Source: Heliocidaris erythrogramma | Taxonomy: Eukaryota > Echinodermata > Echinoidea > Camarodonta > Echinometridae | DNA: 64,000 nt | Direction of reading: 5' to 3' | Assembly (NCBI GenBank): GCA_025617745.1 | Contig: CM046854.1 | Location: 62,019,606-62,083,605 of the forward strand | Shown here: piece after piece, positions 24,901 through 63,258 of the stretch | Position numbering within the stretch: position 1 is the first letter of the stretch | How the letters are laid out: every line of letters starts with the position of its first letter | Notes under the pieces: model-generated | The model's input: only the letters and a program-made list of their open reading frames with translations | Told to the model about the DNA's origin: nothing | Database searches by the model: none | Program-made: the position numbers and the translations under genes

Positions 24901-27900
24901 GGAAGTTTTCAGTTGATATAATTATGTCTAATACCTTGGAACACATTTTGCGTACACATAAACGATTATAATGAAAGTGAATGCATGAGACTTGCATCAT
25001 AGTCATTATAGTGCCCAAAATATTTAATAAACATCAAAGAATTGTCAAGTAATTTCAAACATGCATTGTGCCGAATGAATTGGGGAAAAGGGTTTTTTCA
25101 GTTTCTTTTAAAGGGATTCGTTAACTTTGTGGAGGCTTGATTTGATAAATGTTGAATGTTGATATCTGTCTTGTATAATGATGTGCAGAAGGATAAAATA
25201 GCCAGGCATATAAATGTTTTCAAATATATAATGCTATTATTAAGATATCTATGACTGAATACTCCTATTTACGAAAGCGTATACGCATTAGTCTAACACT
25301 GAGTCTATGGGGGAAAATGAGTCTGGCATTTCCGGTCACTTGCATATGTTTAATTTTGTGAAGCACATGAATTTGAAGTGCTTTTTTTCATGGGGTTCAT
25401 TTTTACACCATATTACATACACTGATAGGATGTAAGGCCAGGCAGCTCAGATTTTATCAAGCCTCTACAAAGTTACCAAATCACTTTAATTCAAGATTTG
25501 GCTATTGGATGGAACAATTAAAGCGATCTATAATTAGTGATTTTGCCCTTCTCATGTGGATTGCCCATAGGCCTACATGTACATCGTCTTTGAGCTGATG
25601 GCAAAATGTGAGAATGCCTCACAAGAGAAAGGTTTGTGAATTTCATCGTCTTTAAAGGGAAGGTAAACCCTGGCGATTTAGTTAGCTGTTTAGTTGAAGG
25701 GCACATTGTTGATTATATATGTCGAATTTCAACACATTTGGGCCCCCCTAACGCCGTCAACAAGTACATTGTAGTTAGAAATATCATTTTGTCGTCTGCT
25801 AGAAGGTCCTATATCGATCGTGTGCGTCGCCATTTTGAACAGATAAGCCCCGCCCTGTGATGTTTTGTCGGACCTCTCGGACCAGAAGTACCCGGATGCC
25901 GCCATTATTACGCGTTTCAAAAAGGTGTACTGCCAGGCGTTCGGATGCTCCAATCGGTCGGGAAAAGGAGGAAATTTGAGTTTCCATTCCTTTCCTAACA
26001 AGGAGAAGAATAGAGAACTATTTTGGAAGTGGGCTACGGCCGTTAAAGGGAAGGTAAATCCTGGACTTTTGGCCTACTGAGAGTGTTAAGAGCACAATTC
26101 TTGACATTACTGTGAAAATTTACCTCTTATGAACGCTTGACGGTGGAGTAATTCACACTTTTGTGAGCAATGATCGTCTGCTACAGCCTGCTATCGGGGT
26201 TGGCCATATTTTTGATTCACCCGCGCTATGATGACGTTTTGTCGGACATGCCTCGTCGGATGGTCGCTACATATCACGTCGTTTTTGTTAGAAACGTACG
26301 AGTTCGACAGAAATTTTTCCACTTTAACGGCCGTAGCCCACTTCCAAAATAGTTCTCTATTCTTCTCCTTGTTAGGAAAGGAATGGAAACTCAAATTTCC
26401 TCCTTTTCCCGACCGATTGGAGCATCCGAACGCCTGGCAGTACACCATTTTGAAACGCGTAATAATGGCGGCATCCGGGTACTTCTGGTCCGAGAGGTCC
26501 GACAAAACGTCACAGGGCGGGGCTTATCTGTTCAAAATGGCGACGCACACGATCGATATAGGACCTTCTAGCAGACGACAAAATGCAATTTTTAACTACT
26601 TGTTGACGGCGTTAGGGGGCCCAAATGTGTTGAAATTCGACATATATAATCAACAATGTGCCCTTCAACTAAACAGCTAACTAAATCGCCATGGTTTACC
26701 TTCCCTTTAAAGTGTGTTCTAACAACAATGAAAACCCATGCACGATATACTCGTTAAACAAGCAAACATGGTATATAAAATGGCATCATCGTTTTACGGG
26801 TAAGGGTGAGATGTTGTCGTTCTTTGGCAGACCATGGCCACTAACAGAGAGACTGCACGGCCACAATGAGCGATTTCACCCCTACCTCTGGGGGACAAAC
26901 CAATGCCTTTACCGTACCTCCAAATGATTTAGCTGAGCAGCAGGAAGACATCTCCATGACGACATTCTTCTGCTGGTTCACAACAGAGAATACTGTGGGG
27001 TTTTTTTTTTTACAGCAAAGCAGGAAGTTCCCCTATTCTGTGCAGACATATAATAATAAATTTCAAGCATCTTGGGCATAAAAGATGGAAGAAATACTGA
27101 ATATATTTTGCCATGTCTTATACTAATGGTGGAATTGCCCAGAGCATTTGAATAACCATTCACGGTTATTAGCATATTTGTATTATGCAGGAATCATGAT
27201 CATCTTATCATTTAACCATAAATATCAGGCTTTTGGGATAAAGGGCTCCGTTCATGAATGCGTGACCATTCTGCATTCATACATGATAATCTTCTAGGAC
27301 ACGGGGAATAAGAACAAAAGAGGGCACTATTCAGTATATGCGTGTAGTGTCCCTGTATTAAAGGGAAATTAACCTCAGCGTATGAATTAGCTTATTTTGA
27401 ATGGTGTAGTATATGCCTCTTATTTGATACATGCAATTTCATGTAAAAACACAGGATATAGATATAAATCACTATTTTCCAGCCAAGTTATCGTCTGCTA
27501 GCAATAATAAGGGGGCTGCCATTACTTTATGTGTACACGAACATATTTTTCATCCCAAGTAAAATTTCCTTCATCGTTAACTTGTAATTGATTTTTAGAG
27601 GACAAATATATATTAGATAAAGTCACATATTCTGAAATGTAAGTTTAGTTTTATATATTTTTTAAAAGGTCTTAATTTGTTCATAAAAAATATACTTCAT
27701 AAAAAATATACGTCAAGGACGGAGAATTGACGTCAAGGACGGAGACAATCGTAACAATACCAAAACAAAGCGAGGAATCTGCTTTACAGGATGGCTATTA
27801 GAACTCATGGGTCGTCAATTATCTAGGCCCATGGCCAATAACAATCGTAATACAATCAGAACAAAGCGACGTATCTGTTGTAAAGGTAGGCTATTATCAA

Positions 27901-30900
27901 TGCATATGGTACCTAATGATCCGTGTCATGCACAAAATGGCAGCCTCCATGGAAAGACGTAGCAGACAATAGGTGCATCTAGAATATCACGTGGGGTTAA
28001 TTGTCGTTTAAAGAGGTAAGCACTATATAGGCACCAATCCTGCTGAGCTCATGAATATTCATATCAGAAACCCCTTTTTGAAGACTTTGAAAGACACTAC
28101 AAGTTTCGGACTTGTATTTTCTTACTCAGTCACCTTATTTTTAAATCAGCAAAAGAAAATTTCGTAATATAAACCTCTGCCGAGGTTCGAACCGTGGTCC
28201 TTTCACCAAGAGAGGACTGGATTATCTGATTGCGCCACACAGAACAGCTGCTCGATGCCCTTGCTCGTTTTATTATATTGCTACAATTCGTTTTCATGAA
28301 TATTCATGCCGACTAGTCTTGACGGAATAAACCGTATTATGAGCAGTTTGACGCGATATGATTTTCATGAGCTCAGCTGCAGGATCGGTGCCTATATAGT
28401 GCTTACCTATTAAAGAGTTGCGACAACTGGGGATTTGAACGCTATTTTGTTTCCACTATTACGTAACATTTCTATTCAATACCGATGAGCACCTTTGTGC
28501 TTTTAAAGGCATTGAGTAGCTTTGCAAAATTTGACAAATTCATCGTGAAAGTGGTCCAATGATATATAATCCTACTGTTAGAACTATACTTAGCAACATG
28601 TGAAAGTAAGATAGAAATTGGAGCTCATTTACTATTTTTAAAAAAGAAAATAAATGTGGTTTTGAAAACAAAATTCTGGCTGAAATAACGGCAGATCTAC
28701 GTTTCAAACAGTATTTGGTCTAGCGTCCTCATGCGTTCGTTGTGAGACATTGGCAATACGCTATGTGTGTTTCGTACATGTATAGAGATAGTATCTATGG
28801 TACATGGTAAGCCCGTTTATACCCAACATCCACTTACAGGCGCTAGGCGCCAGTGATATACCAGCCAGCTGAGCTGTCGGGATAGTTACTTGTACAGTGC
28901 AACGGTATACGGTCGTACTCCGTACCCGTCGGCGAGCCATGTAGCTAACTCAGCTCAGTGCACCGCACACATAGTGAAAGCTAGTTCTCGACGTTTGTTT
29001 TATCATCTTGAGAGTGAGACTTGAAATTTTTTCTCATTACTGCCAGCGCCGGGACAGGGACACAGTGTGATATCCACACAACTCACTGTAAGTGTAAGAT
29101 TTGTAAGATTTGTAAGATTTGTAAGATTTTATTGACTCTATCGACTGGAGTGGTAGGTATAATCCCGGGTATAGGGTGACCTACATCATAGATCATACAT
29201 GTACTGCGTACTTTACTGTACGCCGAGCTCCTTGGGCTTGGCTGATCAATCTGGTAATATAGTGGGCATGGACCATGGTGGGAGTGGTACTGGCCTCCGC
29301 AGCTGTATGGGGAGCCCTAGGCTACGTCACTAGGTCTGCGCACCTAACTAAGGTTTGACGGAAAAAATGAACAAGAATTTTTTTAATATTCCTCTAAAGA
29401 TTTATTTTATTTTATTCCTGATATTCTAAAGAGTAAGTTTGAGAAAAAATTGCATCAAAATTAGAGCAAGAACAATGCCATTTTCACAAGAAACTGTGGC
29501 CTTGTCATTTCAAGTAATTCAAGTTCAAATTTCAACATCCCTGATACTGATGATAGCAGAAAGTGTTAAAAATGACGTGATATTTACGTCGTGGTTTTCG
29601 TCTTTTTTACGTCCTGTAATTACGTCAATAAGACTACAACTTGCATCAACGCAAGACGTCAAGAGGACGTCTTATTTTGACGTCATCTGTACACTGTAAA
29701 AACTGAAGTGCTGTAGGCCTATAGCCTAGGCTATATAGCACTTTTTGAGGGCATGCATAGGGACTGCACTCAGAGTCAGAGTGCTATTGAATGCACACAG
29801 CGTGCTATTTCAGCACTTTCACGCGAGCTGGACCGGCTAAACATTCATTAAAAAAAATTATTTTGGCGAGCCTCGAACCAGGGTCCGCTGATCGAGAATT
29901 GCTGGCATTACCGCTGGACTAACTCACATCGTACGATGTAGAGCAGATCATATTGTTACATAGTGAATTTACGACACCACATAGTTCATGTTATCTATTT
30001 GACTCCCATGACTAAACTGGATTGCAAGAAGCATCTGTCAGTCCATCGGTAACGTCAGTGCCTCTCAATCAGCGGAACCTGGTTTTTTGCTGGTAAATTA
30101 GCACACTACAACTAGTGCTACAAACAGCATTTCAGGTGCAGTCACTATTATACATGCCCCTAAAAGTAACGCTTTAGTTTTTACAGTGTACAAGACGTAA
30201 AGATGACGTCAAAATAAGACGTCCTCATGACGTCTTGCGTTGGTGCAAGTTGTCGTCTTATTGACGTAATTACAGGAATTAAAAAAAGATGTAAACGACG
30301 ACATAAACATCACATCATTTTTTCCTCTTTCTACTATCAGGGACAGGGAGTGAATATAAACAATCTTGCATGGTTCCCAATCCCATGTCTGCGCACTTAT
30401 TCATTAACACGCAGTTCGGGAGTTTTGATGTGAAAAACAACATTTTGTGGCTTGTGAATAAAATGTCTGGTTTGCATGGCTCGCAAGTATGTGAGAAATG
30501 ATTATAATTCATTTTGATATTGCGAGGGGCCGCGAAATAATACCAAACACACACACATATACACAATCCAACGAACACTTACCTTAAATGTAATTATCCT
30601 TGCTGACAAGTATCACAATATGCAGCACGAGTAGGCCTACCGTCTGCTTCGTGTCGAATCAGTAAGTAGTATCAGTAATCAGTATATATGATGATCAATG
30701 ACGATTGTGGATGCGTGATGTCAGATGATATATTTTGGCGGGAGGTTTTCTGTTGTCTTGATCCGTTGGGGCACTCATCCGTATGGCACTTATTGTACAA
30801 CTTATTACATAATACTAAACTGGGCGTTGGGGGCGTGTATCACTTATATTATTATACTACTATGCCACTATACTGCCCCCCACCCAAAAAAAAATGTTTC

Positions 30901-33900
30901 CATATTTATAATATTCTCATTAATTAATATCTATACATATATTTTTCTTCACAAATTCAGTTACAACACTGAACATTACCATTTACTAAACATGTATAAC
31001 TTACCCTTTCTCTGCCTTGCCAAGTGTTAAATAAAATCCTTTTGTCTTTAAAGTTAACGTATATATATATATATATATATATAAAATGATTCCTGTACGC
31101 ACCTGTACAATAAGAAAACAAATGTAAATTGTTATATATAATTAACTTACTATATTTTTTTCTTACTTCTCTAGCTCCAAGACAGCTCGTCTGGTTTATT
31201 CTACTCAGTTTCTCTTCCGTTTTATAAATTATATTGACACTTTGTCTTTTCACAATATATCATATACAAAATATGCGATACCAAAAGCTACTTGATTTTT
31301 CATATTACATAACAAAACTCAACATACATAAAGTAACATAACATGAAGACTATTTATCTTCTCATATAAACATACATATCATTTTATAACATACAGATAA
31401 AGACAAAAATAAAGGTATAGGGCGTACAGGATGCAGGCAGAGAATAGGGGCAAAGGAACTGTATTGCACTTTACTTTATGCAATACAGCTCCCTTGCATT
31501 AACCATGGTCTGGTTGAGGAGTGATTCGAGGGAAACCCCTCGAATCGACGCCACCACCTGCCCGACATCGCCTATAAAAGCTTCCGTCTGCCAACTATTT
31601 CGCGGGCGGACAGGCAGGTACGGGGCGTCCGTCTCAACCAGAAGACGGTTGCTTGGGATGGATTGGATGCCCAACAGTTTAAGATGGGCACCCAATCCAC
31701 AGTAATAGGAAACATTGCCGGTTATGCCAAAGTAGGCATGTTGAAACTTTGATGTCCATTCGTCGACAATGTCCGGCGAACCCATAAAACAGTGAAGGTG
31801 GATTCGCTGTGTCGCCGGACAGTGTCGACGGATGGCATCCCGTGCCAATTTATGAACCGACCTCGGAATCGGCCCGTTGCCCGGTCTAGAGCCATTAGCT
31901 CCCCGGAGATGGAGAACCAGGACTCTCCCAGTGGAAAGCCCCAGGAGCCGCTCAAAGAGCTTCTCCTGTGCCTCCCACTCGGAGTCGTCCGTGGTCCAAT
32001 CCAGCCCCATCTCCGAGATGCCCCGAACCCTCGGATCGGCAAGGGCCGATCTCAAGGCCTCAAAATGAATGTTCTTAAGGCCAAAGGCGTGTTTGGGGTG
32101 TATGCCCACAGCCACTGCAAAGCCCTCAGGCAGGTCCCTAAACACCCCGTCCAGGTAACCGGGGGCCGAATATCTATTAGGGTCACAGAAGTTCATGACC
32201 CCCCCGGCCACCTCGACAGGGTGCACAGGTTTCCCCTGGAGCTCTGACTTCGCCCCTTTCATTGCAACCCTATCGGGATGATAATGGGCATCAAACCCTT
32301 TCAATAGTGGCTGCGAGCAAGGCGACCCACTTTTTTCCTTTTCGGGTACAATTTCCCGAAGGGCTTTCTTAACAATTTCAGGGGTCATGCCCCTTCCTCT
32401 CCCACCAGAGAATCCCGCCATGTGGAGTGATCTAGGCCCTGGCCAGAGTCCACGGCCACGACCAATCCCCACGGCAAAACTTCCGGTGGAAGAGGGTCCA
32501 GAAGAGAACCCGGGAAGCGGGCCAGGGGCAGTTCTTTGTTCCTGCTCCTTTTTGGCTTTTTTGGCCCGCTTCTCGCGCTCTCTTCTCTTCTGATTGGCTA
32601 TTCTTTTCTTTTCTCGCTCGGCCTCAGAGAGAGCTTTAACCTGGGCAGTCCCTTCTGCTGGAGCAAGAGGTGGATTGCCCGGAGAAGCCTGCTCCGAAGC
32701 CGAGCTGAGTACCTTTTTAAGAGAAATATTATCTTGGTGCCACACTTCCTCTTCCCCTGGAGGCGGTGGTAGATCCTGTCCTGACATCCCTTTCACTGCA
32801 TGGGAAGATAAGAATAATTATAATCAACCATACTGGAAGGATCACTCATTATACTCACCTTGGTCTATCTCCCCCTGGCACAAAGGGGGCAAAACCATTT
32901 AAGATCTTCTAGCCCTCCTGATTGGGTAATTCCCACACATGCTCCATGATACCATTCCAGACATTTGTCGCAACAAATCATCAAAGAGCCATCATCAGGC
33001 TTCCGGCAAAGACAGTAAAGTTTGTCTTTGCCAGGAGTCTCAACAATAGCCTTACTTCGATCCGTACATTTTTTCAAACGATCGTGATTATAAGTGGCTA
33101 TTGTTCTTTTGAAGGCTACTCGATAGAGATAAGGCGACCTTTTTTCCACAATAACCGCAGGTCCTTTCCAAGGGGGGCTCAACTTACGTGATCTCCCCTT
33201 GACACTAGCCGTATCCCTGATATATACACGGTCATTTACTTCAAATTCTCTTGTATATTGTCTGACGTCGTAATCTCGTTTCATTCTTCGTTGAGCAGCT
33301 TTAATTGCTGCCCTAGCTGAAATGTGGGCCTTCCGCATAGCACAAGTCAGCTCGGCAACAAATTCTTCTTTAGTCTGCTCTTGCGTTCGTTGGGGAACCG
33401 AGAATACGAGATCAGCGGGTAGATTGACCTCCCGACCCAGCATCAGCTTGTTAGGGGTAAATCCAGTCGTACGATTGACGGTAGAACGAATAGCACCTGC
33501 GATTTGCTGCAGATGTTTATCCCAGTCTCTTTGAGACTTAGAGACATAGCATCGCACCGCATCCATCAAGGTCCTATTCGCTCTCTCAACTTGCGAATTT
33601 GCTTGGGGGCGGAAAGCGGTAGTTTTGGATTTATGAATGTCAAGGACACGACACATGTCCTTGAAAAGGATGCTCTCAAAATTCCTGCCCTGATCCGTGA
33701 AGATTTGAAATGGATACCCAAATCGGCAGAAAAAACTGCTCACAGCTGCATGAGCCGTCGTCTCCGCCGTTTGGGAGGGCAGGGGTACGCATTCCACCCA
33801 TTTAGTGAATTGATCTATCATAACCAAGATGTGCTCATTACCCTGTGAGGACTTTGGAAGTGGACCCATAAAGTCGAGATGGACACGCTCCATGGGCGCA

Positions 33901-36900
33901 CCCGCATGATAATTCTTCATAGGATGCCTCCCATGACGCGTGGCCTTCTTGTTTTGATTGCAAGTAGCACATCTTGCTATGTAGATTCGTATATCTTCCG
34001 ACATGCCGTACCAATAGTACTTTGACTTTAACTTAGCCCGAGTACGATTGATTCCAGCATGTCCTGCTGAAGGAGGATCGTGATTCAGCCGGATGATGTC
34101 ATGTCTCAGTGACTCAGGAACCACCGTGACATCACCTTCATCCTTCTTTCTCCAGATAACGCCTTCCTTTAGGAAAAAGAGGTCCCTGTTTATCCACAAA
34201 AATTTACCTTCGGGTGGGAGGAGAAACAAGGTCCCTTCATCCAATTTTTCCTTGTCGGATAACCATTTACGTAGGGGCATGAGGAGTTGGTCTTTTTCCT
34301 GCTCTTGCTTGACTAAATTGTCAGAAGGCGGGTCCTCTGCCACCCCGTCGGGGCCACCAACTGAAATACTTCTGATCTCAAATGAATGGGCTGTATTAAA
34401 GGATATTTCCATATGTGTGACAGGGAAACACTCCTCAACAGCCACACTTGAGACCCGTTGGCTTCGGCTCAATGGCACAACATCGTCTATGCAATCGACG
34501 AAATGTGCCCATTCTCTGTGTCTTTTGGTGCAATATGAGCACCCGCCACATGGCAAGTCTTGTATTCGCACACCAAGCTCATATCCCTCACATACCGGCT
34601 GGGTGTCCGGAATGCGAGAAAGAGAGTCGGCATTCGAATGACGTCTACCAGGCCGGTGTTCAATTTGCATGTCATACTGCCCCAACTCCTCAAGCCAGCG
34701 AGACAACTGTCCTGTCGGCGTTTTGAAGTTGAGCAGCCACGTTAAACTGCCATGATCCGTTCTCACAGTAAATGGCCTTCCTAAAAGATAGTGCCTATAC
34801 TGTCTACAAAAGAGCACCAGCGCTAAAAGCTCACGACGAGTAACGCAGTAATTCCTTTGCTGTGGAGAAAGGGATAAACTGCCATAGGCGATAACCTTCT
34901 CCTCGCCGTTCTGAACTTGCAATAGTTCTGCTCCAATCGCTGTGCTCGATGCATCAGTATCTAAGATGAACGGATCAGATACATTTGGAAGTGCGAGTAC
35001 AGGAGCGGATGTTAGTAGAGCTTTAATCTGTTCGAATGCAGATTGGTGCACATTTGTCCAGCAAAATGCATTACGACCTGTAAGCTCATATAACGGTCCA
35101 GCCACCCGTGCATAATTCTTCATGAACACCCTATGGTAGTTGGCTAGCCCAAGAAATTGTTCCACTTCTTTGGTGGAAGTAGGAGTAGGCCATTCAACCA
35201 CCCTTTGAATGTTCTCTTCTGGTAGATGCAATCCTGTAGCATCAACTTCTCTGCCCAAGAACTCTACCCTTTCTTGAAATAGGGCACACTTCTTGGGTTT
35301 CAGTTTAAGTTTGTAGTCTTTGAAACGTCTCAGGACTGCTCTTAGGTTCTGGATATGATCTGGGAATGATTTACCTAATACAAGAACATCATCCAAGAAC
35401 GCAAGGGCCACGTCCCATGTCAGACCTCTCAAGACTAAGTTCATCACGCGCTGGAATGTGGCCGGTGCGTTACACAGGCCAAATCCCATGCGGACGAATG
35501 CATACAGTCCATGTTTAGTAACAAAGGCTGTTTTGTCTCTGTCGGATTCGCTTACCTTGATTTGCCAATAGGCGGCGTTAGCATCAAGTTTTGAATACCA
35601 TTTATTGCCAGCCAGAGTATCAAGGCATTCTTCAATACATGGTAGAGGATAGACGTCCTTCTTGGTAACATTGTTCAGCTTGCGGTAGTCAATGCACCAT
35701 CGGACTCCTCCATCTTTTTTCCGCACTAACACAGGAGGCGATGCCCATTCAGACATAGATGGCTGGATAACCCCAGGGGCAAGCATCTTACCCAGATGTG
35801 CCCGCTCCTCCTGAATAAAGTTCAGGGGGGTCCGCCTCATCTTTTGTTTGACGGGTCTTGCATCGCCAGTGTCGATGCTGTGAGTTATCTCGTTGAAATC
35901 ACCGAGATCAAACTCATCTTTCGCAAATACTGATTCGTATTCAAGTAGAAGCCTTCTTAACTCCTCCTGTTGCCCTGGGGCCAGCCCCTCAACAGAGCGG
36001 CTCCAGAGATCCAGAAGGTGTGGGGGTATGTCAGAGTCCGAAGTATCAGCGGTGCTGACACTCCTCACTGACACCCCTTCAGAAGGCTCCATGGTAGGCT
36101 CCAACACTGAAACTTCATAAGCTTTTCCAATGATGTCACCTCTCCGTAGTTTATACACAGTATCTGAGGGGTTTACCATGAGAACTTCTGTCCTTTTCTC
36201 CCCATCATGGAGACTACGGGGAATAAGGACAGGCACAGGTAGAAAGGGCAAGGGTTCAACCAAGAACGGCCCAGAATTAAGGGCAACAGAGCATTGAACC
36301 CTTCGAACCGAACTTGGGGGGATAGAAACACTCTTATCCACACTCACCCTTGCCGCATACTCCGAGTCTTCTCGTTGAATTATAGGCAAGTCCTCATGAT
36401 TCAAAGTTAAGATAGCATTTGGAATGCTTATATTGGCATTATGCTTTCGCAATAAATCAACGCCAAACAGCATTTCATCTGCTATCGGAGCTACATACAT
36501 CTCTTCACTTAGTATTTGGGTACCAAGCTTGAGATCGACAGGCCCTATCACAATGCCATCCATTGTCATTTCTCGACCAGCCCCCTTAAGAACTACACGC
36601 TTAAGGACAGGCGGTTGAGGCTGGAGGCGGTGAAATAGCCTATCAGAAATAATTGTAACAGCCGCTGCAGTATCCAGAACGGCGGTTATTGACTCGTTGT
36701 CTACCGTCACTCCAACACTTAAAGTTGAAGTCGATATAATTCTGCAAGCAACTATCTCTATGTCATGACTACCTAAATCACCAGAAATGTCTGGTGGCCA
36801 AGGTGGATTCCTCCAAGGGACTTCCGTCCTCTTAGAGAACCCCGGGCTACCTGGACTTACTTGTAAGTCATGACTTTCTAAATCACCAGAAATGTCTGGT

Positions 36901-39655
36901 GGCCATGGTGGATTCCTCCAAGGGACGTCTGCCTTTTTAGAGAACCCCAGGCTACCTGGACTTACTTGTAAGTCCGGTGGCCGCGGTTCGCCATGACCAT
37001 ATTCATGTGTGCTTAAACCTTCAAATGCGGAGTCCCCAACAGGTAACCTGTCCTCTAATGGAATGGAGATGGCGGAGGTGGAGAGACCTGATCGGATCGG
37101 GGGCTCCCCATCTCCTCCGATCCCTGTCCATTTCCCTGCTCAAACGTTACGGCCCTTATCTGCCGATTGTCACGGGCAGGCGTTCTAGCTATGGGGCAGG
37201 CCCTACTGAAATGGCCTTCTTCCCCACAGTTGTAACAACCTGTGAATTGTCTTGGTCGGTCAAATGCAGAACGATCAGGTGTCCGACTGGAGTTATACCT
37301 CGGCCTGTCCGGTGTACCCGGAGCACGGCCAGAAGTGTACCTCTGTCTTTCTGGTGTGCCAGGGGCCCGGCCAGAGGTGTATCTCGGCTGGGCACCCGAC
37401 ACCATACGCTCTGGTGTCCTGGCGGAACAACTTCCCACCAGATCCTTGGTGCTACGGGACAAATCCCTGATGGCAGCAACCATGGAATCCATCTTTGAGG
37501 CCCATACAGCGCTTTGAGCCTCAAGAGCACTGATTCTAGCCTCAATGCTTGGATTGGTGCTTGCAGCCGCCTTCGGTGGAGACTTTTTCTGAACCCGATG
37601 GTCGGTTTCCGTCTCCCCTACAGACAGTTGCCTAATGTCTTTTCTCGGCCGTGGGCAATGCACATGCATGGTCTTTTGGGTAAACTGGTACCATTTGTAC
37701 TTCGTCATGGCCTCATCTAAGTTCCCAGGCCGAGAAGTAAGGACATGGTGTCCCGCATCCTTGTCATGGGCACCCTGGCAGAACCTTGCAACGACCAGTT
37801 CCTGGACGAACTTGTCCGGTAGGCCAATGAAAGCCTGGCCCGCCAGGGTCAAAAGACGATCGGCCCACTTAACAATGTCTTCATCAGGGCGCTGGTAGGC
37901 GGATTGAAACTGCATCCGTGTAACTTCTGGCTCATCCTGGAGAGCAAACCGCTTCTCCAATTTGGCAACCAGGTCATTATAGGAGATGTCTGGATTGCTC
38001 TCCCTGATAAGGGCCATGAATTTACCGGCCTCTGCCTCCAGCGCCAGGCACAACTGATATTTTTTGTCTTCATCTGTCATACAATTCCTGTCAGTATACA
38101 GTTGAAACTTAGAATAGAAAGCTGCCCAACTCTCCTTGCCATCGAAGGAGATCGTCTTGGGCAAAGGCGTTGGTCGGTACATAGGCATTCTATCGTCTTC
38201 TTGTCCGTTACGATGATATGCCGATGCAGCCGGGTTAAGCCGTGTTACGCGGGGCGGCTGGCTTCGTGCCGGCAGCTCCGTGTATCCAGGGCTCACCGAC
38301 GGCATAGTGGTTTTTGGTTTCGGAAACACTCGGCCACCTTGTCCTTCTCCTTGGGGCCTAGTGTTTTGAGTACTGGGGATTGGACCCCCATACCTCAATT
38401 CAGCTGGCCCTTGGGGAGAAGGTTGAGGGGCTTGAGTGTTGGGGTGACCGGGTTGGTTGCAACTGCTTCCAGCCCATGGTGGGTAAAATCCACCGTAAGC
38501 GGCAGCAGGATTGTAATTCGGAGGGGCAGGTTGCCCCCTTCCCCCAAGTGGCATACACTGGAACATTCTCCACATCATCCCATACATTTCCTCGTATTGG
38601 GCCGATGTGAATTGGCCGCCCCCGGATGAGCGTGAGGGTGATGGTTTTTGCCACGCCTGAGGGCCGGGTTGAAAGGTAGGCTGAGTTTGAGGGGCCTGAG
38701 TTTGTCTTGGGGCGTTTGACTGCCGCCAAGGGGCAAACTGAAATTGTGGATACCGCTCTGGTTGTGGTGGGTTTGGCTCAAATGGAGATGCCAGTTGGGG
38801 AGGTGCATCTGTTGGTAAATTGGAGATGCCATTATTGTTAGGTGGCGATGGCAATAAGCCATTATGCCATCTAGAAAATCCTAGTTGTTCTCTTTGGGCC
38901 TCTCCCAGCGCAGAATAATAGTCAGAGCCCCAGAGAGACTTGGCTTTATCTTGCGCCGGGAGGGTGGAAGGCTGTGGAGCAAAAGCGCCCCCCGGCCTCC
39001 CGCCCGGCAGTGTTTGCATGGGCTGGCCTACAGCGCCATGCACATTATGTACGTGGCTAAACTGTGGCGGGGCCTCGTATGACTTGCTCTGAGTGAGCTG
39101 TTGTGGAGGAAACAATGGAGTGAACGAATCCAGTGGCTCGTCCCCCACAGATCGCACTTCTCTTTGGTCTGCTCTAAAAGCCACCTCTGAGGGCTCATAA
39201 TCAAAAGCGTAGACTAGAAGTTCCGCTCTTGGTATATGAGGTATTGATAAGAATACTTCGGGAGTGAGGTCGGCTGCCTCTCTCGCTTCAAGGATGCGTT
39301 TGACGGTGGCCGTACCCACCCCCGGTAAACTCATCAATTCCTCAGGGGTACAATTGTTGATTTTAATCCTTGTCAAATTAGTCGCCATATTGACAAAAAC
39401 AATAATATAAACCAATTTACAATTGTACAGTTTATATTTACTTTAATAAATTATTTTACAATATCAAGAGCACTAATCGATGACTGCAGCTGCGTTCTAA
39501 AATGTAACGGCGGCGATATAGCTCTTGACTTATTAGAAACTAAATTGGCCAATTTCCAATGACAAAATTACAAATGGAAAAATTACAAATTCAGCAGCAG
39601 CAGCAAAATTCTCGGCGCGTTTTCTCCAAAAACATTTCCAAGTTACTATGTATTC

Positions 39656-40092: not shown

Positions 40093-43000
40093 TTATTTCT
40101 TCCACTTCCAGAGAGAGAGAATTTCCCGCTCACACAAACAACAACGCTCAAAAGATTCAACCATATACACCGCATTCAACCATATACACCACGCACCCAC
40201 GACAAAAATATTCAACAAATCACGACCAAAAATCACTCTGACAATCAATAACTAAATAATTCAACACTAAAACAGCTCGAAAAATAATACTAAACCCCAG
40301 TTATCCTCGTCGCCAGTATTGCGAGGGGCCGCGAAATAATACCAAACACACACACATATACACAATCCAACGAACACTTACCTTAAATGTAATTATCCTT
40401 GCTGACAAGTATCACAATATGCAGCACGAGTAGGCCTACCGTCTGCTTCGTGTCGAATCAGTAAGTAGTATCAGTAATCAGTATATATGATGATCAATGA
40501 CGATTGTGGATGCGTGATGTCAGATGATATATTTTGGCGGGAGGTTTTCTGTTGTCTTGATCCGTTGGGGCACTCATCCGTATGGCACTTATTGTACAAC
40601 TTATTACATAATACTAAACTGGGCGTTGGGGGCGTGTATCACTTATATTATTATACTACTATGCCACTATATAGACATGTTACTTGTTAAAAAGTTAGAT
40701 CTTGTTTTTGTTGATATGTGCCTCCGACTCCACTCACAGTTGGATCCCATGAACGGCTCTGTAGGCCAGTACTAGTACCAGATTGATAAGCCAAGGAGCT
40801 CATATAGGTAGGACTCATAGATAATGAGATATCAGCCCCCCCCCCCCAAAAAAAAAAAAAAAAATATGACTCACATACTGTGAGTCATGCAAACCATCCT
40901 CGCCCAGGCCTCAGAGTCAGAGTTTGCGAAAGGGGTTACCTTCCACTCCAGGATCAACTAAGATTGTAAAAATTGATTGACAAAAAAAAACCACACAAAA
41001 CTGGCAGGTGTGATCAGGGTTTTTTTTTTACTTGCACATGATGTAAGACTTGTAAGTTATATGGGACTACCCATGCAAGGTAAGGTTTGTGTAGTCCCAT
41101 ATATATATAGGTTACAAATGCAAGGTAAAAAAATCTGTCGATTTTTGTCTTTTCTCTTTTTTAGTCATTCAATTTTTACAATCTTAGTTGATCCTGGAAG
41201 GTAACCCCTATAGCAAATTCCGAGGGTGGGTTGCATGGGTCAACTTAGGTGAGAAATGGTGATATTTCACACACAAGGTAATTATGGATCCCATGTACAG
41301 CTCCATAGGCAAGTACATGTACCAGATTGATAAGCTAAGGAGCTCGTACAGCTACCTGGTACCCACGCACAAGCTCCCATGCAATCGCTTAATACGCTGT
41401 GGGTCATGGCACGTCTATTCTATGTTGTCTTTGAAGCAAAACGGGCCTGGCCGAGGCGTGCCAGAACGATTAGAACGACAAAATGAAAAAAAACAAACGT
41501 TGCTTTGGAATGTTTTTTCTCTTTTTCTCAAGAAAAAAATTGTATGCTTTGGAACAAAAATTTTCGTGTAGAAATGGGGGTCTTCTGGGCGCCACATACC
41601 CACCACACACTACATGTACATTTATATACTGAGTCCTCCCAAAAAAAATAAACACTTGGATTCACTCTGCTCTTTCCAGGAATTTTGAATCTTCTTCTTG
41701 CCGCTTTCCCAATCTGGTGGAATATTACATACCAATCATGCCATAGAGTAATTGCATTGTTTTCTTAGCAGTTCAAAATCTTATATAGGATTTATATGTG
41801 ACAGTTCTTATCAATGAGAATGAGTTATCCTTGTCATACCTATGTTGGGTGTCCTGACAGGTTGGGTGTCCGGACAGATAGTTTCCAACTACTGTATACC
41901 TATGTTGGGTGTCCTGACAGGTTGGGTGTCCGGACAGATAGTTTCCAACTACTGGTAGATCTGATCTGTAAATTTTAAAACTTTTGCATTCAATATTTGG
42001 GAAATCGCAATGTATGTCGGGCATAAGCATGAATAAATATTTTATCTTGGTTAGTGCTATTCCATGCATATTATTTTTGGAGAAATCCAATGGCAAACTT
42101 CAGTTATATGGACCTACCCCTTCATACTAGTGAATTTTATTTTTAAAATGTTTTTTAATACTTTCCTGGATAAGTGGATATATAGGGCAGGGAGGTGTGG
42201 GCTGTTCACAGGTACATGTATATGATTCAGTAGATATCTACAAACTCTTATTTTCAGTCTTTCATTCAGATCCATATACTCGCCTAAGAAAACGGTTTGA
42301 TAGTCTGTTATGGATACATTTGACTTGTCATTCTATTTTGCTTTCAGATGCATGACATCTCTTATTTGATCAAATTGATGATGGAGCAGACACAGTCATG
42401 CTAGAAACATGCAAATAGATCTACACTCACCTACAGGTAAATATCCTCTTTCGTCACCTTCCATGTTTACTTGAGAGATGTGCAATTATAGAACAGGAAT
42501 GAAACAAAGAAATTTTGTATTTGGAGTAGTAGGGTCTACATGTAAAAAATAAAGAAATGAAGTATAATAAAAATAAAATTAAGCTGGTTTATTGCCACTC
42601 GGGTCTATTCCATTAGAGTTTTTGTCATGCAAGAGCTTGACTAACAGGGGCGTTGCTAGAACATTTTGAATGGGGGAGGGTTGTGACACCCAAATTTTTA
42701 GGATGCAATACCCATTTTTGCAGACAAAACTGCTGCACCCTAATCCCTATCCTCCGACAAAAATTAATAAAAGAAAATTGCAGACATAGAGATCTTGATC
42801 AGACAGGCCCATTTCGTAAGGAGGGGACTGACGCCTTTTGCCCAAATATCAGCTTTTCAATTTCTAAATATTTTGCCAGAGAGTGAAGCGAGTCAAACAA
42901 AATTTGTTTGAACTTTTCTTTAGGTGAAAATTACTGAAGTTTACTTACATAAGTTATATAATTATCCTGGAACCTTTCTTCTTCAATATGTGGATATGGG

Positions 43001-58120: not shown

Positions 58121-61100
58121 TTACACCTTACTATCACGGTTGCCCTCTTGGCAACCAATTACAAATCGACGAGTCCTTTTGAAATATCTGACGAGTGCAC
58201 CTTGTGTCTTGACACTGAGATTCTCCACTTTGTGTTCCGCCTCAGAGACATTGCTCACATTTAATTCAGCAAGTAACAGGGCGCGTTGAATGATAAACCT
58301 AGGGCAAACATATAAAAAATGGTATACCGTTTCTCTCTCGTTACAAAAATCACACTTTCCAGTTGTGTGTCTTCCTGTCTTAAACAGGAAATAATTCAAA
58401 CCCAAACCTGCCAAGCGTAATCTGTGAATCATTTTTTCACTACTTTTGTCGGTGCAGAGATACTGAAATGATGGTTTTTCTGAGACCACTTTTTGGTATT
58501 TTCTTAATTTTGAGTTTGACCTGTCCCATCTCTTCTGCCATTCATTTTGTATGAAAATTCTTAAAATATGTTTGGTTTCTTGGATATTCAATCCATTATT
58601 AATCTCTATTCTTTGTTTTAGGGCTGTTTTCGCATAGAAATCAGCCGTTTCGTTCCCTTGGACCCCACAGTGAGATGGGATCCATTCTAAGCAGATTATT
58701 GTGCCTTTGTATTTTAGACATGTAGCGGTGATTATAATTTCTTTTACGAAATTGTCGTTATTGTTTTCCTTGATTGCTTGAATAGCACTCAGAGAATCTG
58801 TCAAAATTACCACTTTATTATAAACATTCAAATTTTCAAGCCACCGTAGTGCCAAGACAATTGCGGCCAATTCTGATCTGTAAGATGATGTAAAATTTTG
58901 CATTCTTTTACATTCAACTACCGGCATTGCAGGCACATAATAGCAAGCAGAGGCGCTGCCTTTTGCAGGGTCTCTAGAACCATCAGTATAAATATGGAGA
59001 TTATTTTTCCACATTTTATTAATATACTCCACAGTTGTATTGTATTGATAAAACATGTTATCACTTTTTGACACAAGCTCATGTAGCGCCAATGACACTT
59101 CTGGTGGAGAGAGATGCCAAGGCGGCATGGGGGTAAAAGACATGAGTGATTCGTTTGCATGATACATGTATATTTCATCTTCCATAACTCTCAAACCAAA
59201 TGGTTTACGCACTTTCTTATTCTTTTCATATTCAAATTGCCAGCAGTTCTTCAAGGAGGATTGGAGTGGATGTGTGGGGTTTTGCCTTATTTTTGCTTTG
59301 TATACCTTACTAAGCATGGATCTTCTTAGGTCGAGTGGTAATTCACCCGTGTCCACCTGTAAAGATTCTAAGGAAGTTCCCGGCAACGCCCCTGTACACA
59401 ACTTCAGAGCTTGGTATTGAATAGTCAGCAAGAAGTTCTTCACATGATCATGAGCCGAATCATATGCCTCAGATGCATAATCCAAGAGTGGCTTAATGAC
59501 CACCTTATAGAATTTTATAAGGCTTTTATAGTTACTTCCCCAGGTAGTTCCCGCTAGTCTTTTCATGATATTTATTTTCTTTTTAGCTCTTGTTACAATC
59601 ATATTTATATGCGGTCTCCATGTAAGCTTCCTGTCCAGCATTACACCTAAAAATAGATGTTCCTCCTTTGGTGGTAAAGGGACCCCATCTAAGTCAATCT
59701 GTACATTTTTGTTAGTATTGCTGAAAAAAAAAGGAACAGACTTTTCTTTAGAAAGGGTAAAACCCCATTTGTTGAACCACTCATTTAGGTTATTTACGTA
59801 GATTTGTACTTTTCTTTTCAGAAAATCTATGTTTTTCCCACTCTTCCATATTACACAGTCATCAGCGTATGTAGAAATATTGACAGATGCGTCCATCGGT
59901 ATATCCGATAACATCAAATTAAAAAGGACAGGACTAAGTGAGCTGCCCTGGGGCAGCCCTTCCTCTATGTTATGTGTTACTGAGTAGCACTGATTTGCCC
60001 GGACCTGGAAAGAGCGCCCACTTAAGTAGTTCCATAAGAACCTAACAGTGTTGCCTTGGAAACCAAGTTTGTTCAGTTTATAAATCAATCCTTTCTTCCA
60101 CAGTCTGTCATATGCCTTCTCCATATCAAAGAAAACGGCCAGGGTATGTTCTTTATTACCAATACTCTTTTGAATGTCATTTTCTAGTTGGGTTATATTG
60201 TCTTTTGTGCTTCTTGCTTTTCTAAAAGCACTGTGACAATTTGGTAACAGACAATGTTTTTCCGTAAACCATGTCATTCGTTCCTTGATAATTTTCTCAA
60301 CTATTTTGATGAAACAGGTAGTAAGAGATATAGGCCTATAGGAAGAAACATATGTAGCTACCTTGTGTGGTTTCAATATTGGGACAATAACATAATGCTT
60401 GCATTGGGTGGGAACAATTCCTGTTACCCATATGTTATTCATGATATTTAACATTACTTCTCTCCCTTTGTATGAGAGATTTTGATATACTTCATACCCA
60501 ATTCCATCTTTACCTGGAGAAGACTCTTTACAGGTTTTTAATATTATACTTAATTCATACATGGTAAAGGGTTCATCAAGGACACTACTACTCTGTGCAT
60601 CACTAAAGGATGATATGATATCGTCACATTGGCTAGCAATTTCTTTTTGTTCAGGGGTATTAACCTTGCCCTGAAAACTTTCGTTAATGGTTTTAAAATG
60701 GCTGGCGAAAGTATCCGCGACTTCACTGTCAGTGATTGCGGAACAATCCTCTCTCATGAGAACAATGTTTTTCCTGGTTGAAATACCATCATTATTGATC
60801 CTTTTGATCATACTCCAGATATTCGATAGAGGGGTAAAACGATCAATGTTCTGACAGTATTTTTCCCAGTATAATCTTTTAGCTTGCCTTAAAGTTCTTT
60901 GAGCGATAGCTCTTTTCTTCTTGAAATCCTCCACTAAATCAGCAGAGGGTATTACATAACTTTTCAGTTTGCTCCTTGCCCTATTTCTCTCCTTTATTCT
61001 AGAGGAGCATTCTTTATTCCACCATGGCATAGGGTTTTTCTTTATTTTCTTTGTCGCCCGATGTGCTTTCACTTTTTCCAGGGAAAACCTAATTGTTTCC

Positions 61101-61971
61101 ATGAAAGTTTGGTACTCTATAACCTTACCTTCATTCTGTAAGGTATCCCATTGTTCCTCAGTTAGATGCCTAAATTCATCCCAATTTACATTCTTTGTGG
61201 ATAGCATTGAACAAATTTGTTGGGATTGATCAATCTTTGTATGTGTACTATTCTCATTCAATATGTTCAATTGGCATAACAGTGGGTAATGGTCACTTCC
61301 CAAACTATTGTTCAGGACTTGCCATGTTGTTTTGTTAGCTTACAAGGAGGGGCTAAGGTTAGATCCAAACAAGAAAAATTACCCGTGTGGTAGTCTACTC
61401 TAGTAGCACTCCCATCATTCAAAATAACTAGGTTTCTCTCGTTTGCAAACTCTTCCACTACTTTACCATTTGTATCTGTTTTCTGGCTACCCCATAAAGT
61501 GTTGTGTGCATTAAAATCTCCTATTATGATTGTGTGCTTTTCCTTCACAACATTGTTAAATAATTCATTTAACGAACCAATGCTGAGTTTGTTACATGGG
61601 TTATAGAAATTGACTATATTCACAGAAACGTTATCATGCAATAAAACTTGTAATGATATGATTTCTAAATCATCGTGTTTGAAAACTCTATTGTAATTTA
61701 GTTTAGAATACACGTATATTGCACACCCACCCCGAGTTCCTCCTTGTCTATTTCTATATTCACATATATAATCTGGAATTTGCATAATACATCCATCGTC
61801 AAACCACGTTTCTTGAATACAGATAATTTCAAAGGGTCTTGTTTGCTGATTTAAAAAACTAATTAACTCATCCCCGTGGCATCCAAGACCCTGTGCATTC
61901 CACTGGAGAATGCTGAAAGCCACGAGTGTAACAAGGCTAGTGGAATAGGCCATGAATGGTCTGTAATTCAT
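58121..61971 (-). pseudogene. LINE ORF2: AP endonuclease, reverse transcriptase, RNase H
   Basis: About 1283 codons in two frames. The endonuclease (61971-61312): ILQWNAQGL, CIQETWF, IIGDFNAHNTLWGS. The frame shifts by one near 61330, shortly before GSDHYP, the last endonuclease motif, which opens the second part (61303-58121). Reverse transcriptase: SYRPISLTTCF, FDMEKAYDRLW, GLPQGSSLSPVLFN, and catalytic YADD in STYADDCVIW. RNase H near the end: IYTDGSRD, SELAAI, LTDSLSAI, and WIPSHCGVQGNETAD. A C-terminal CDFCNERETVYHFLYVCP zinc-knuckle-like motif follows. It lacks only the continuous frame; the catalytic residues I can see are present. Start and stop are typical, 60 bp after ORF1. Confidence 0.9.
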
Positions 61972-62030
61972 CTACGGTGGGATGTAAGCCCAGTGTATCT
62001 TTCAAGATATGTGTAATTTCATCAAATGGG

Positions 62031-63258
62031 TTACAATCTGGCTTTGTGACTGATTAATCTGATAAAGAAAGAGACAAGTGTGATGTCGGGGACACCTTTC
62101 AAGAAATTTCTATTGTTTTGGTCTGTATTTTCAGACTTATTGCTTGTCGTATCCATTTTGGTAGAAAATTGCGAGCCGGAGACGATTTCCATATCGGTTT
62201 GATCGGAATCTACAATTGTTAAATTCTCTTTCCGAGTATTTATTTTGTCATTTTCTTTTATTACATTCTTAAGTTCTGAGTTTTTAAAATGTTTTTCCTG
62301 CTTATGTTCCTCATTTTGTTCTGAGTGTAGTTTCACTGCCTGTGCAAAAGAAATTCGATTTTGTATTTTAATTTGCTGCACTTCTTGTGCTTCTTTCGAT
62401 GCCTCGCATCCTTTATAAGCGGCCGAATGGTTACCATTGCAATTTACGCATTTGAAATGTTGTCTCTCCAGCTCGCAACTTTCTACCGAATGCCCTAGGC
62501 CACACCTAGGGCACCTCTCCTTGGCTTTACATCCTATTGCTAAATGCCCGTATCTTTGGCATTTGTAGCACCTGGGTACTGGTGGAATGTATTCCTTGAC
62601 TCTTATCTGCTGGAAGCAAAATTCAACATATTCAGGAACTTGAGGGGTAGAGAAAAACAGTATGATAGTTTTTAGGGGCTTCAAATCACCTTCAATTCTT
62701 TTTTTCATTCTCTCAACTTTCACTACCCTACTTCTTTCTAGCTCTTGCAGAATATCTTCCTCAGATGTCTCAAGAGAAATCCCAAATATGACCCCTTTCG
62801 AGGCGTAGGTTTTTTCCTCTGCTTTTACTGCAATTTTGCCGATCTCCGGTATCTGGGTTAAGGCTTTATATTGTCTGTCATTTCTGCATTTTCCTAAGAG
62901 CCCCTTCCCACCTCGAACAAACTTAATGTAGTCTGGGGGAGACCTACAAGCCTTTTCTATATCTTTCTTGATAGTTAGCTGATTTTAATATTTCTTTTTT
63001 TATTTCTCTCTATGGGTACTATATGGGTACTAAGAGCACCTTAAGGTCTGTTTTTATGGCGTTTTCACCTGTTTTGAGCGGAGTTGACGGCGGGGTGCCG
63101 AAGTCGGTATCCGCCGCCAACTCCTCCACATCACTTAAACTACCCTCTCTCATCCTTTTTTTGGCTAATTTTAGTTTTCTTATTACTTGAAAACCTCCAT
63201 CATCTACTGAGGGCTTCAGATGAGTTTGATTCTCTGCCACTGGAGTGGCGCCCGCCAT
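62031..63258 (-). pseudogene. LINE ORF1: nucleic-acid-binding protein with three zinc knuckles
   Basis: ORF1 begins MAGATPVAENQTHLKPSV at 63258 and reaches a stop at 63019; the continuation is open in another frame from about 62985 to 62031, so there is one break near a small duplication ('gtacccatatagtacccata'). The second part has an RRM-like stretch (DYIKFVRGGKGLLG, ASKGVIFGISLETSEEDI) and three CCHC knuckles: CYKCQRYGHLAIGC, CPRCGLGHSVESC, CVNCNGNHSAAYKGC. Such ORF1 proteins coat LINE RNA. An acidic, Lys-rich tail follows. Confidence 0.8.

Follow-up and report, generated by a model that had tools for sequence, protein, structure and literature searches.

The window analyzed here, a 64,000-nt stretch of Heliocidaris erythrogramma DNA (contig CM046854.1, forward-strand positions 62,019,606 to 62,083,605), carries on its minus strand, from position 40671 down to 30518, an element made of two long terminal repeats (LTRs), gag, pol and a third open reading frame (ORF3) with a TatD nuclease domain. 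Both LTRs (40317–40671 at the 5′ end and 30518–30872 at the 3′ end) are 355 nt long, are identical at 355 of 355 positions, lie 9,799 bp apart and have as termini TATAGTGG and GCAATA, rather than TG and CA. They are flanked by TCTA (40672–40675) and TCAA (30514–30517), an imperfect 4-bp target-site duplication that agrees in three of its four bases. In three of the four copies looked at, the fifth copy with an intact ORF3 being left out, the duplication was a perfect 4 bp (GTAT, GTAT and ACAT), within the 4–6 bp expected of Ty3/gypsy-type elements. A probable primer binding site, TGGCGACGAGGAT, which we take to match tRNA-Ser, is found one base inside the 5′ LTR (40303–40315), and a polypurine tract, GGGTGGGGGG, lies ahead of the 3′ LTR (30876–30885). 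The gag frame (37055–39415, first ATG at 39388) encodes a PNMA/gag-like core, a CCHC zinc knuckle and, at the N-terminus, a helix-hairpin-helix (PF00633, E 3e-6), which is a DNA-binding type of motif and looked unusual for Gag. The pol frame (32865–36710) encodes protease, reverse transcriptase (RT), RNase H and integrase, in that order, and ends in a PHD finger. From its LTRs, its gag and this order of pol domains, the element is classed as a young Ty3/gypsy-type LTR retrotransposon, and ORF3 lies on the same strand between pol and the 3′ LTR, just as the first-pass annotation of the window had described.

ORF3 (31471–32796) has 441 codons when read from a GTG and 438 when read from its first ATG (31471–32787), which places its start 68 bp or 77 bp, respectively, after pol. 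The Pfam model TatD_DNase (PF01026) covers residues 168–438 (31483–32295) with an E value of 1.7e-32 and model positions 1–252 of 253, and no further Pfam family was detected in ORF3 at E 0.01. The TatD fold that had been read from motifs was thus recovered by profile search, and all six motifs (DxHxH, GIHP, E.GLD, the H in LHLRG, HCF.G and ETDAP) were found present. Because the N-terminal motif contains HxH and the other metal-ligand motifs are in place, ORF3 falls into TatD group II, which is described as defined by HxH, as in TATDN2, TATDN3, YcfH and YjjV (PMC10085689). When the ORF3 profile was compared with PDB chains, the best scores were obtained with YcfH (103 and 88 bits) and a 'putative TatD related DNase' (88 bits), and lower ones with TatD (69 bits), TATDN3 (43 bits) and TATDN1 (30 bits). 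The nearest proteins come from the sea urchins Lytechinus variegatus (67%) and L. pictus (78%). Residues 1–160 are basic and rich in glycine and arginine, with 28 lysines or arginines. These features identify the ORF3 product, by sequence, as a group II (HxH) TatD-type metal-dependent nuclease whose activity is predicted.

The host genome was searched over 1.06 Gb in 26 contigs. ORF3 as query gave 105 matches (95 of 568 candidates scored), including five full-length ones at 99–100% identity, the remainder forming families that fall from ∼72% to 34%. The Pfam TatD model gave 149 matches (150 of 207 candidates scored), and merging both sets left 144 TatD places. With the integrase-PHD end of pol as query, 120 matches were obtained (117 of 2636 candidates scored). 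Judged by coordinates, a pol match lies on the same strand no more than 6 kb upstream of at least 66 of the 144 TatD places and in another arrangement at 2, while a TatD domain was found downstream of 69 of the 120 pol matches; these linkage counts are lower bounds, since only part of the candidates was scored. Among the first 45 loci fetched, some of them overlapping, 23 showed a same-strand pol segment upstream, two showed gag only (L007 and L042) and 20 showed neither, in many cases because ORF3 exceeds the length of the flank. Two loci, L017 (C14:25.64 Mb) and L022 (C20:36.40 Mb), are deletion derivatives in which RT-RNase H runs in frame into zinc finger-TatD without integrase. A search with the LTR sequence showed that all five ORF3 copies at 99–100% identity are flanked by LTRs on both sides; in one of the five the 5′ LTR is split in two, and L004, also one of the five, carries a frame break in pol. 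A family E copy on C3, whose TatD is 35% identical to that of the window, is bracketed by a 274-nt LTR pair that is 100% identical, and L042 has a pair of 81-nt repeats, 94% identical, 8,035 nt apart. No LTR pair was found within the fetched stretch of family H, and family J gave only a 51-nt tail at the edge of its stretch. Five LTR-flanked copies at 99–100% and numerous more divergent ones preceded by a related pol put the arrangement beyond chance, and the data support the conclusion that ORF3 is real as a gene and recurs in LTR-bounded elements, not being confined to the window copy.

Distances between integrases and between TatD domains of 11 element families were strongly correlated (Mantel r 0.908, permutation p 5e-5), and the two trees agree. 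The ratio of nonsynonymous to synonymous change (omega) was low in the TatD domain of five within-family pairs, chosen from a larger pairwise set: 0.04 in family B (16 synonymous and 2 nonsynonymous changes, binomial p 1e-8), 0.05 in H (7 and 1, p 3e-4), 0.07 in F (66 and 19, p 1e-24), 0.14 in E (7 and 3, p 3e-3) and 0.18 in G (29 and 18, p 6e-8). The comparison of A with A2 likewise gave 0.18, at a dS of ∼1.2, which is near saturation. The catalytic motifs are retained in 30 distinct sequences, except for NxH in place of HxH in L034; in this comparison four rows end before the first motif at the boundary of the match, and other comparisons gave DSHAH at this position for family E. All in all, the TatD domain is under purifying selection and changes slowly at the protein level. 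The test of selection among copies that the first-pass annotation had proposed thus came out in favour of a conserved function, and congruent trees together with purifying selection contradict a recent passenger without selection.

Some subfamilies have lost ORF3. In the identity bands of the families concerned (C2, H and J), the fraction of pol matches with a TatD domain downstream was 5 of 14 at 77–78% identity, 9 of 24 at 64–71% and 20 of 44 at 57–63%, against 35 of 38 in the other bands, the absence of TatD being confirmed by sequence in three copies only. These three (L051–L053) gave no TatD match and were also negative by tblastn after pol, and their integrases are almost identical (0.003 changes per site) to those of the ORF3-bearing families C2, H and J. 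Relative to family H, a deletion of ∼1,990 bp removed the entire ORF3 and left a short filler at the junction; relative to J and C2, remnants of ORF3 are left. The three losses are separate, recent deletions at nested tips. Loss by splicing was considered and rejected, since a splice consensus is lacking at the H junction, where filler is present, and ORF3 remnants persist in the J and C2 derivatives. As ORF3-less subfamilies went on multiplying, there is no strict requirement for ORF3 in cis, and both complementation in trans by neighbours and plain dispensability fit this behaviour.

In several families a pyrimidine-rich tract and an AG stand right ahead of the ORF3 ATG. Acceptor-like strength was scored in nine families against a background of 962 other ATGs from these loci (the E probe was unmatched, and A2 and G were left out), and five of the nine, A, B, C2, I and J, ranked in the top 7%. 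In the window, which belongs to family A, the putative acceptor-like AG (32796–32797) lies with its pyrimidine-rich tract 8 nt upstream of the ATG, and its score was matched or exceeded by 6.4% of the background ATGs. Some families have a donor-like GT where pol ends, and in the window a putative donor-like GTGAGT (32853–32858) lies shortly after the pol stop. It is plausible from these signals that ORF3 is made from a spliced mRNA. The donor-like GT near the pol stop and the acceptor-like AG before ORF3 also delimit a short intron-like gap (32797–32864 in the window, and in L033, L041, L057 and L039). A general fusion of pol to ORF3 through removal of this segment was set aside, as C2 alone would fit when the frames were followed by eye.

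Long forms of ORF3, of ∼650–970 aa, have the TatD domain last, preceded by a CX4CX9HX3H zinc finger and by a helical-looking stretch with a motif resembling NTPAALIHWR; the sub-lineage of the window has neither of these two leading modules. The two cysteines and two histidines of the finger are invariant or more than 90% conserved in an alignment of 39 homologues. Among homologues 430 aa or longer that come from animals or are unassigned (ENA, JGI), 46 of 66 show the pattern, versus 1 of 162 other TatD proteins. In the host genome it is present in families E, G, H, I and J and in the deleted form of F, and it was not found in A (the window family), A2, B, C, C2, D or the truncated L043. The finger would be ancestral and would have been lost later in the A–D branch. 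Three proteins from ENA contigs (P0196, P0197 and P0202) form a separate TatD group behind CCHC zinc knuckles, outside the clade of element TatDs.

Among the best 120 of 832 matches of a profile search, finger-TatD proteins were found in sea urchins (Strongylocentrotus and Lytechinus), a starfish (Acanthaster), bivalves (Pinctada, Saccostrea and Mya) and a gastropod (Haliotis). Among the same matches, Diadema, Mactra, Dreissena and Tegillarca yielded TatD relatives in which no finger was matched. An Acanthaster gene model joins H2C2, integrase, PHD, zinc finger and TatD within one protein, so that ORF3 has the same neighbours in another echinoderm class. A TatD tree was built by a quick method from 119 rows, vertebrate TATDN2 not included, with midpoint rooting and the Shimodaira–Hasegawa-like approximate likelihood ratio test (SH-aLRT) as sole support. 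In this tree one clade (99) unites the element TatDs with the echinoderm homologues and with some unassigned ENA proteins; the mollusc proteins fall outside it, and bacterial TatDs fall outside the molluscs. Three Lytechinus proteins annotated as 'putative deoxyribonuclease TATDN2' (P0157, P0239 and P0240) lie inside the element clade as sister to family D (99), and the search for their orthologue in the host genome returned nothing closer than family D elements, at 55% (58 of 720 candidates scored). These proteins may be domesticated or mis-annotated ORF3s. The guess of the first-pass annotation that many 'TATDN2-like' annotations in marine invertebrates are such elements is supported in one case, that of Lytechinus. 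Its wider form, in which the clade predates the echinoderm-mollusc split, has a dedicated zinc finger-TatD third gene and accounts for many invertebrate 'TATDN2' or 'metal-dependent hydrolase' genes as its ORF3s or their domesticated derivatives, is a possibility that we take seriously and fall somewhat short of favouring.

Other searches outside the host genome gave the following. One protein search returned seven proteins, none of them vertebrate TATDN2. In a search for contigs of molluscs or symbiont metagenome-assembled genomes with pol next to TatD, query P0130 had no match in genome contigs, query A3 gave seven loci at 24–30% identity in viral contigs, and query A1 gave at least 80 loci in genome contigs, in bacterial records. 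P0130, P0175, P0179 and P0190, from metagenome-assembled genomes of Sedimenticola and Thiodiazotropha, cluster with the animal zinc finger-TatDs, possibly through contamination from invertebrate hosts. In a figure of the giant squid Hox cluster (PMC6962438), the non-Hox genes located within the cluster include a 'TATDN2' as well as a pogo transposable element gene, and this 'TATDN2' might be an ORF3 of the same kind.

We propose that an old Ty3/gypsy-type lineage with a PHD-ended pol, present here and in at least one starfish, has ORF3 as a genuine third gene. Its protein would be translated from a spliced mRNA with the acceptor just ahead of the ATG and, by analogy with TATDN1, TATDN3 and TATDN2, would be an active 3′-5′ exonuclease, apurinic/apyrimidinic (AP) endonuclease or RNA/DNA-hybrid nuclease; it would trim or repair reverse-transcription or integration intermediates and would act in trans, serving ORF3-less copies too. 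TATDN1 and TATDN3 are described as 3′-5′ exonucleases that also have AP endonuclease activity (PMC10085689), and TATDN2 is reported to resolve R-loops as a structure-specific RNase and to be required by medaka germ cells (PMC12709183). It is because of these activities, together with the position, selection and loss of ORF3, that we rank an accessory trans-acting nuclease as the most likely reading. That ORF3 is a conserved, selected element gene is close to certain, and that its protein is an active nuclease is, by analogy, highly probable. The proposal as a whole is one that we moderately favour, and the specific role in trimming or repair is put forward tentatively, as the less likely side of the question.

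Several observations weigh against this proposal. Young A copies differ by 0–2.5 synonymous and 1–4.5 nonsynonymous changes, with omega at 0.5–1.0 where defined, and constraint also appeared weaker in the pairs L036/L037 (0.32) and L042/L044 (0.41), as expected if decay has set in among young or degraded copies. Only for the TatD part is constraint evident, since in family E the N-terminal region (7 synonymous and 11 nonsynonymous changes, omega 0.58, p 0.19) showed none that was significant. The acceptor-like scores of H, D and F reach only the top 10–16%, no acceptor-like site was found at the ORF3 start of family C, and a search of the 5′ leader in the window family found no strong donor and one weak match. 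With 117 of 2636 pol candidates scored, no scored pol match lies upstream of 78 of the 144 TatD places; these may be fragments, host genes or copies with an unscored pol. Finally, the multiplication of ORF3-less subfamilies means that ORF3 is perhaps merely dispensable.

The nuclease could also be directed at the host, targeting silencing or sensing (small RNAs, RNA/DNA hybrids or cytosolic cDNA) rather than replication intermediates. Action in trans and dispensability in cis, suggested by the multiplying ORF3-less subfamilies, would suit such counter-defence, and TATDN2 is reported in R-loop resolution and in germ cells, the cells in which a retroelement has to move (PMC12709183). However, no target is known and the TatD domain evolves slowly under constraint, unlike the fast change often seen in arms races, and we regard this second-ranked reading as unlikely. 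Much less probable still is that the TatD fold only binds nucleic acid for packaging or transport, catalysis being irrelevant: the basic, Gly/Arg-rich N-terminus and, in longer ORF3s, the zinc finger would fit such a protein, but the metal-ligand motifs are retained across families that have otherwise diverged far. Repeated gain of ORF3 and its exchange among element families, a kind of sharing described for DEDDy and GDSL ORF3s (PMC5408684), would agree with the variable presence of the zinc finger; it is made very improbable by the correlation of integrase and TatD distances (r 0.91) and by the three ORF3-less copies examined, which are nested tips with deletion junctions and not basal. That ORF3 is a recently captured host TatD gene carried without function, for which gene capture by LTR elements offers precedent (PMC5408684; PMC9289625) and the loss of ORF3 in three subfamilies some encouragement, is already contradicted by 11 families with congruent trees, purifying selection and retained catalytic motifs, as well as by the separate clade that element TatDs form with echinoderm homologues, and can be dismissed as extremely improbable.

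The accessory nuclease that we favour has parallels among known systems. As with the DEDDy exonuclease ORF3 of the retrovirus-like bdelloid rotifer LTR elements Juno and Vesta, the nearest precedent, a nuclease occupies the slot after pol, and only in some families; the two folds, however, are unrelated, the bdelloid ORF3 is also common to Penelope-like elements, and its variation is reported as mostly neutral, in contrast to the purifying selection on TatD observed here (PMC5408684). The term 'TatD' is absent from the text of that paper, and no DEDDy exonuclease domain was found in our ORF3, Pfam returning TatD only. Ty3/gypsy elements of the orchid Phalaenopsis likewise carry an extra frame for a nucleic-acid-processing enzyme, AlkB, an N6-methyladenosine (m6A) demethylase, but the enzyme is another one, the host is a plant and the acquisition is reported as recent (PMC9289625). 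Cellular TatDs (TATDN1, TATDN2, TATDN3 and E. coli TatD, YcfH and YjjV) have the domain in common with ORF3, which differs from them by residing inside LTR elements and by having a basic, disordered region and, in many cases, a zinc finger ahead of the domain. With the envelope gene of retroviruses and errantiviruses ORF3 shares the place after pol, an acceptor-like site (in most scored families) and loss while copies multiply, but it encodes an enzyme domain instead, and no envelope glycoprotein homology was found in it by Pfam scan alone, with no transmembrane prediction run. QatD of the bacterial Qat anti-phage defence is another TatD domain in a genetic conflict; its NCBIfam match to ORF3 is weak (E 9e-10), far under the cut-off and no better than that of other TatD models. 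Troyka (PMC12440569) and Ginger (PMC2836005) were checked and set aside, and PMC3286476 proved irrelevant.

No TatD gene in an LTR element was found in the literature, as judged from titles and abstract starts among the matches listed, subscription journals and Repbase not being covered; the terms 'TATDN2' and 'LTR retrotransposon' occur together in PMC5408686 and PMC5840709. LTR elements with an enzymatic third ORF were already known. LTR retrotransposons are generally thought to need gag and pol alone. A nuclease gene selected through many families, with the examined losses at the tips, points to a step in the element life cycle, or in its dealings with the host, of which we found no account, and makes it testable which nucleic acid needs cutting for such elements. 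It also calls for caution with some marine-invertebrate 'TATDN2' annotations, which may be element genes.

Two other features were noticed in the window. At 25650–26712, inverted repeats of 98 and 278 nt, 98–99% complementary, surround an ORF with a THAP domain (PF05485, E 3e-9), and this stretch looks like what remains of a DNA element of the foldback or P type. The minus strand carries, at 58121–62723, three ORFs that appear by eye to resemble a long interspersed nuclear element (LINE), with a CCHC-type gag, an endonuclease, RT and RNase H.
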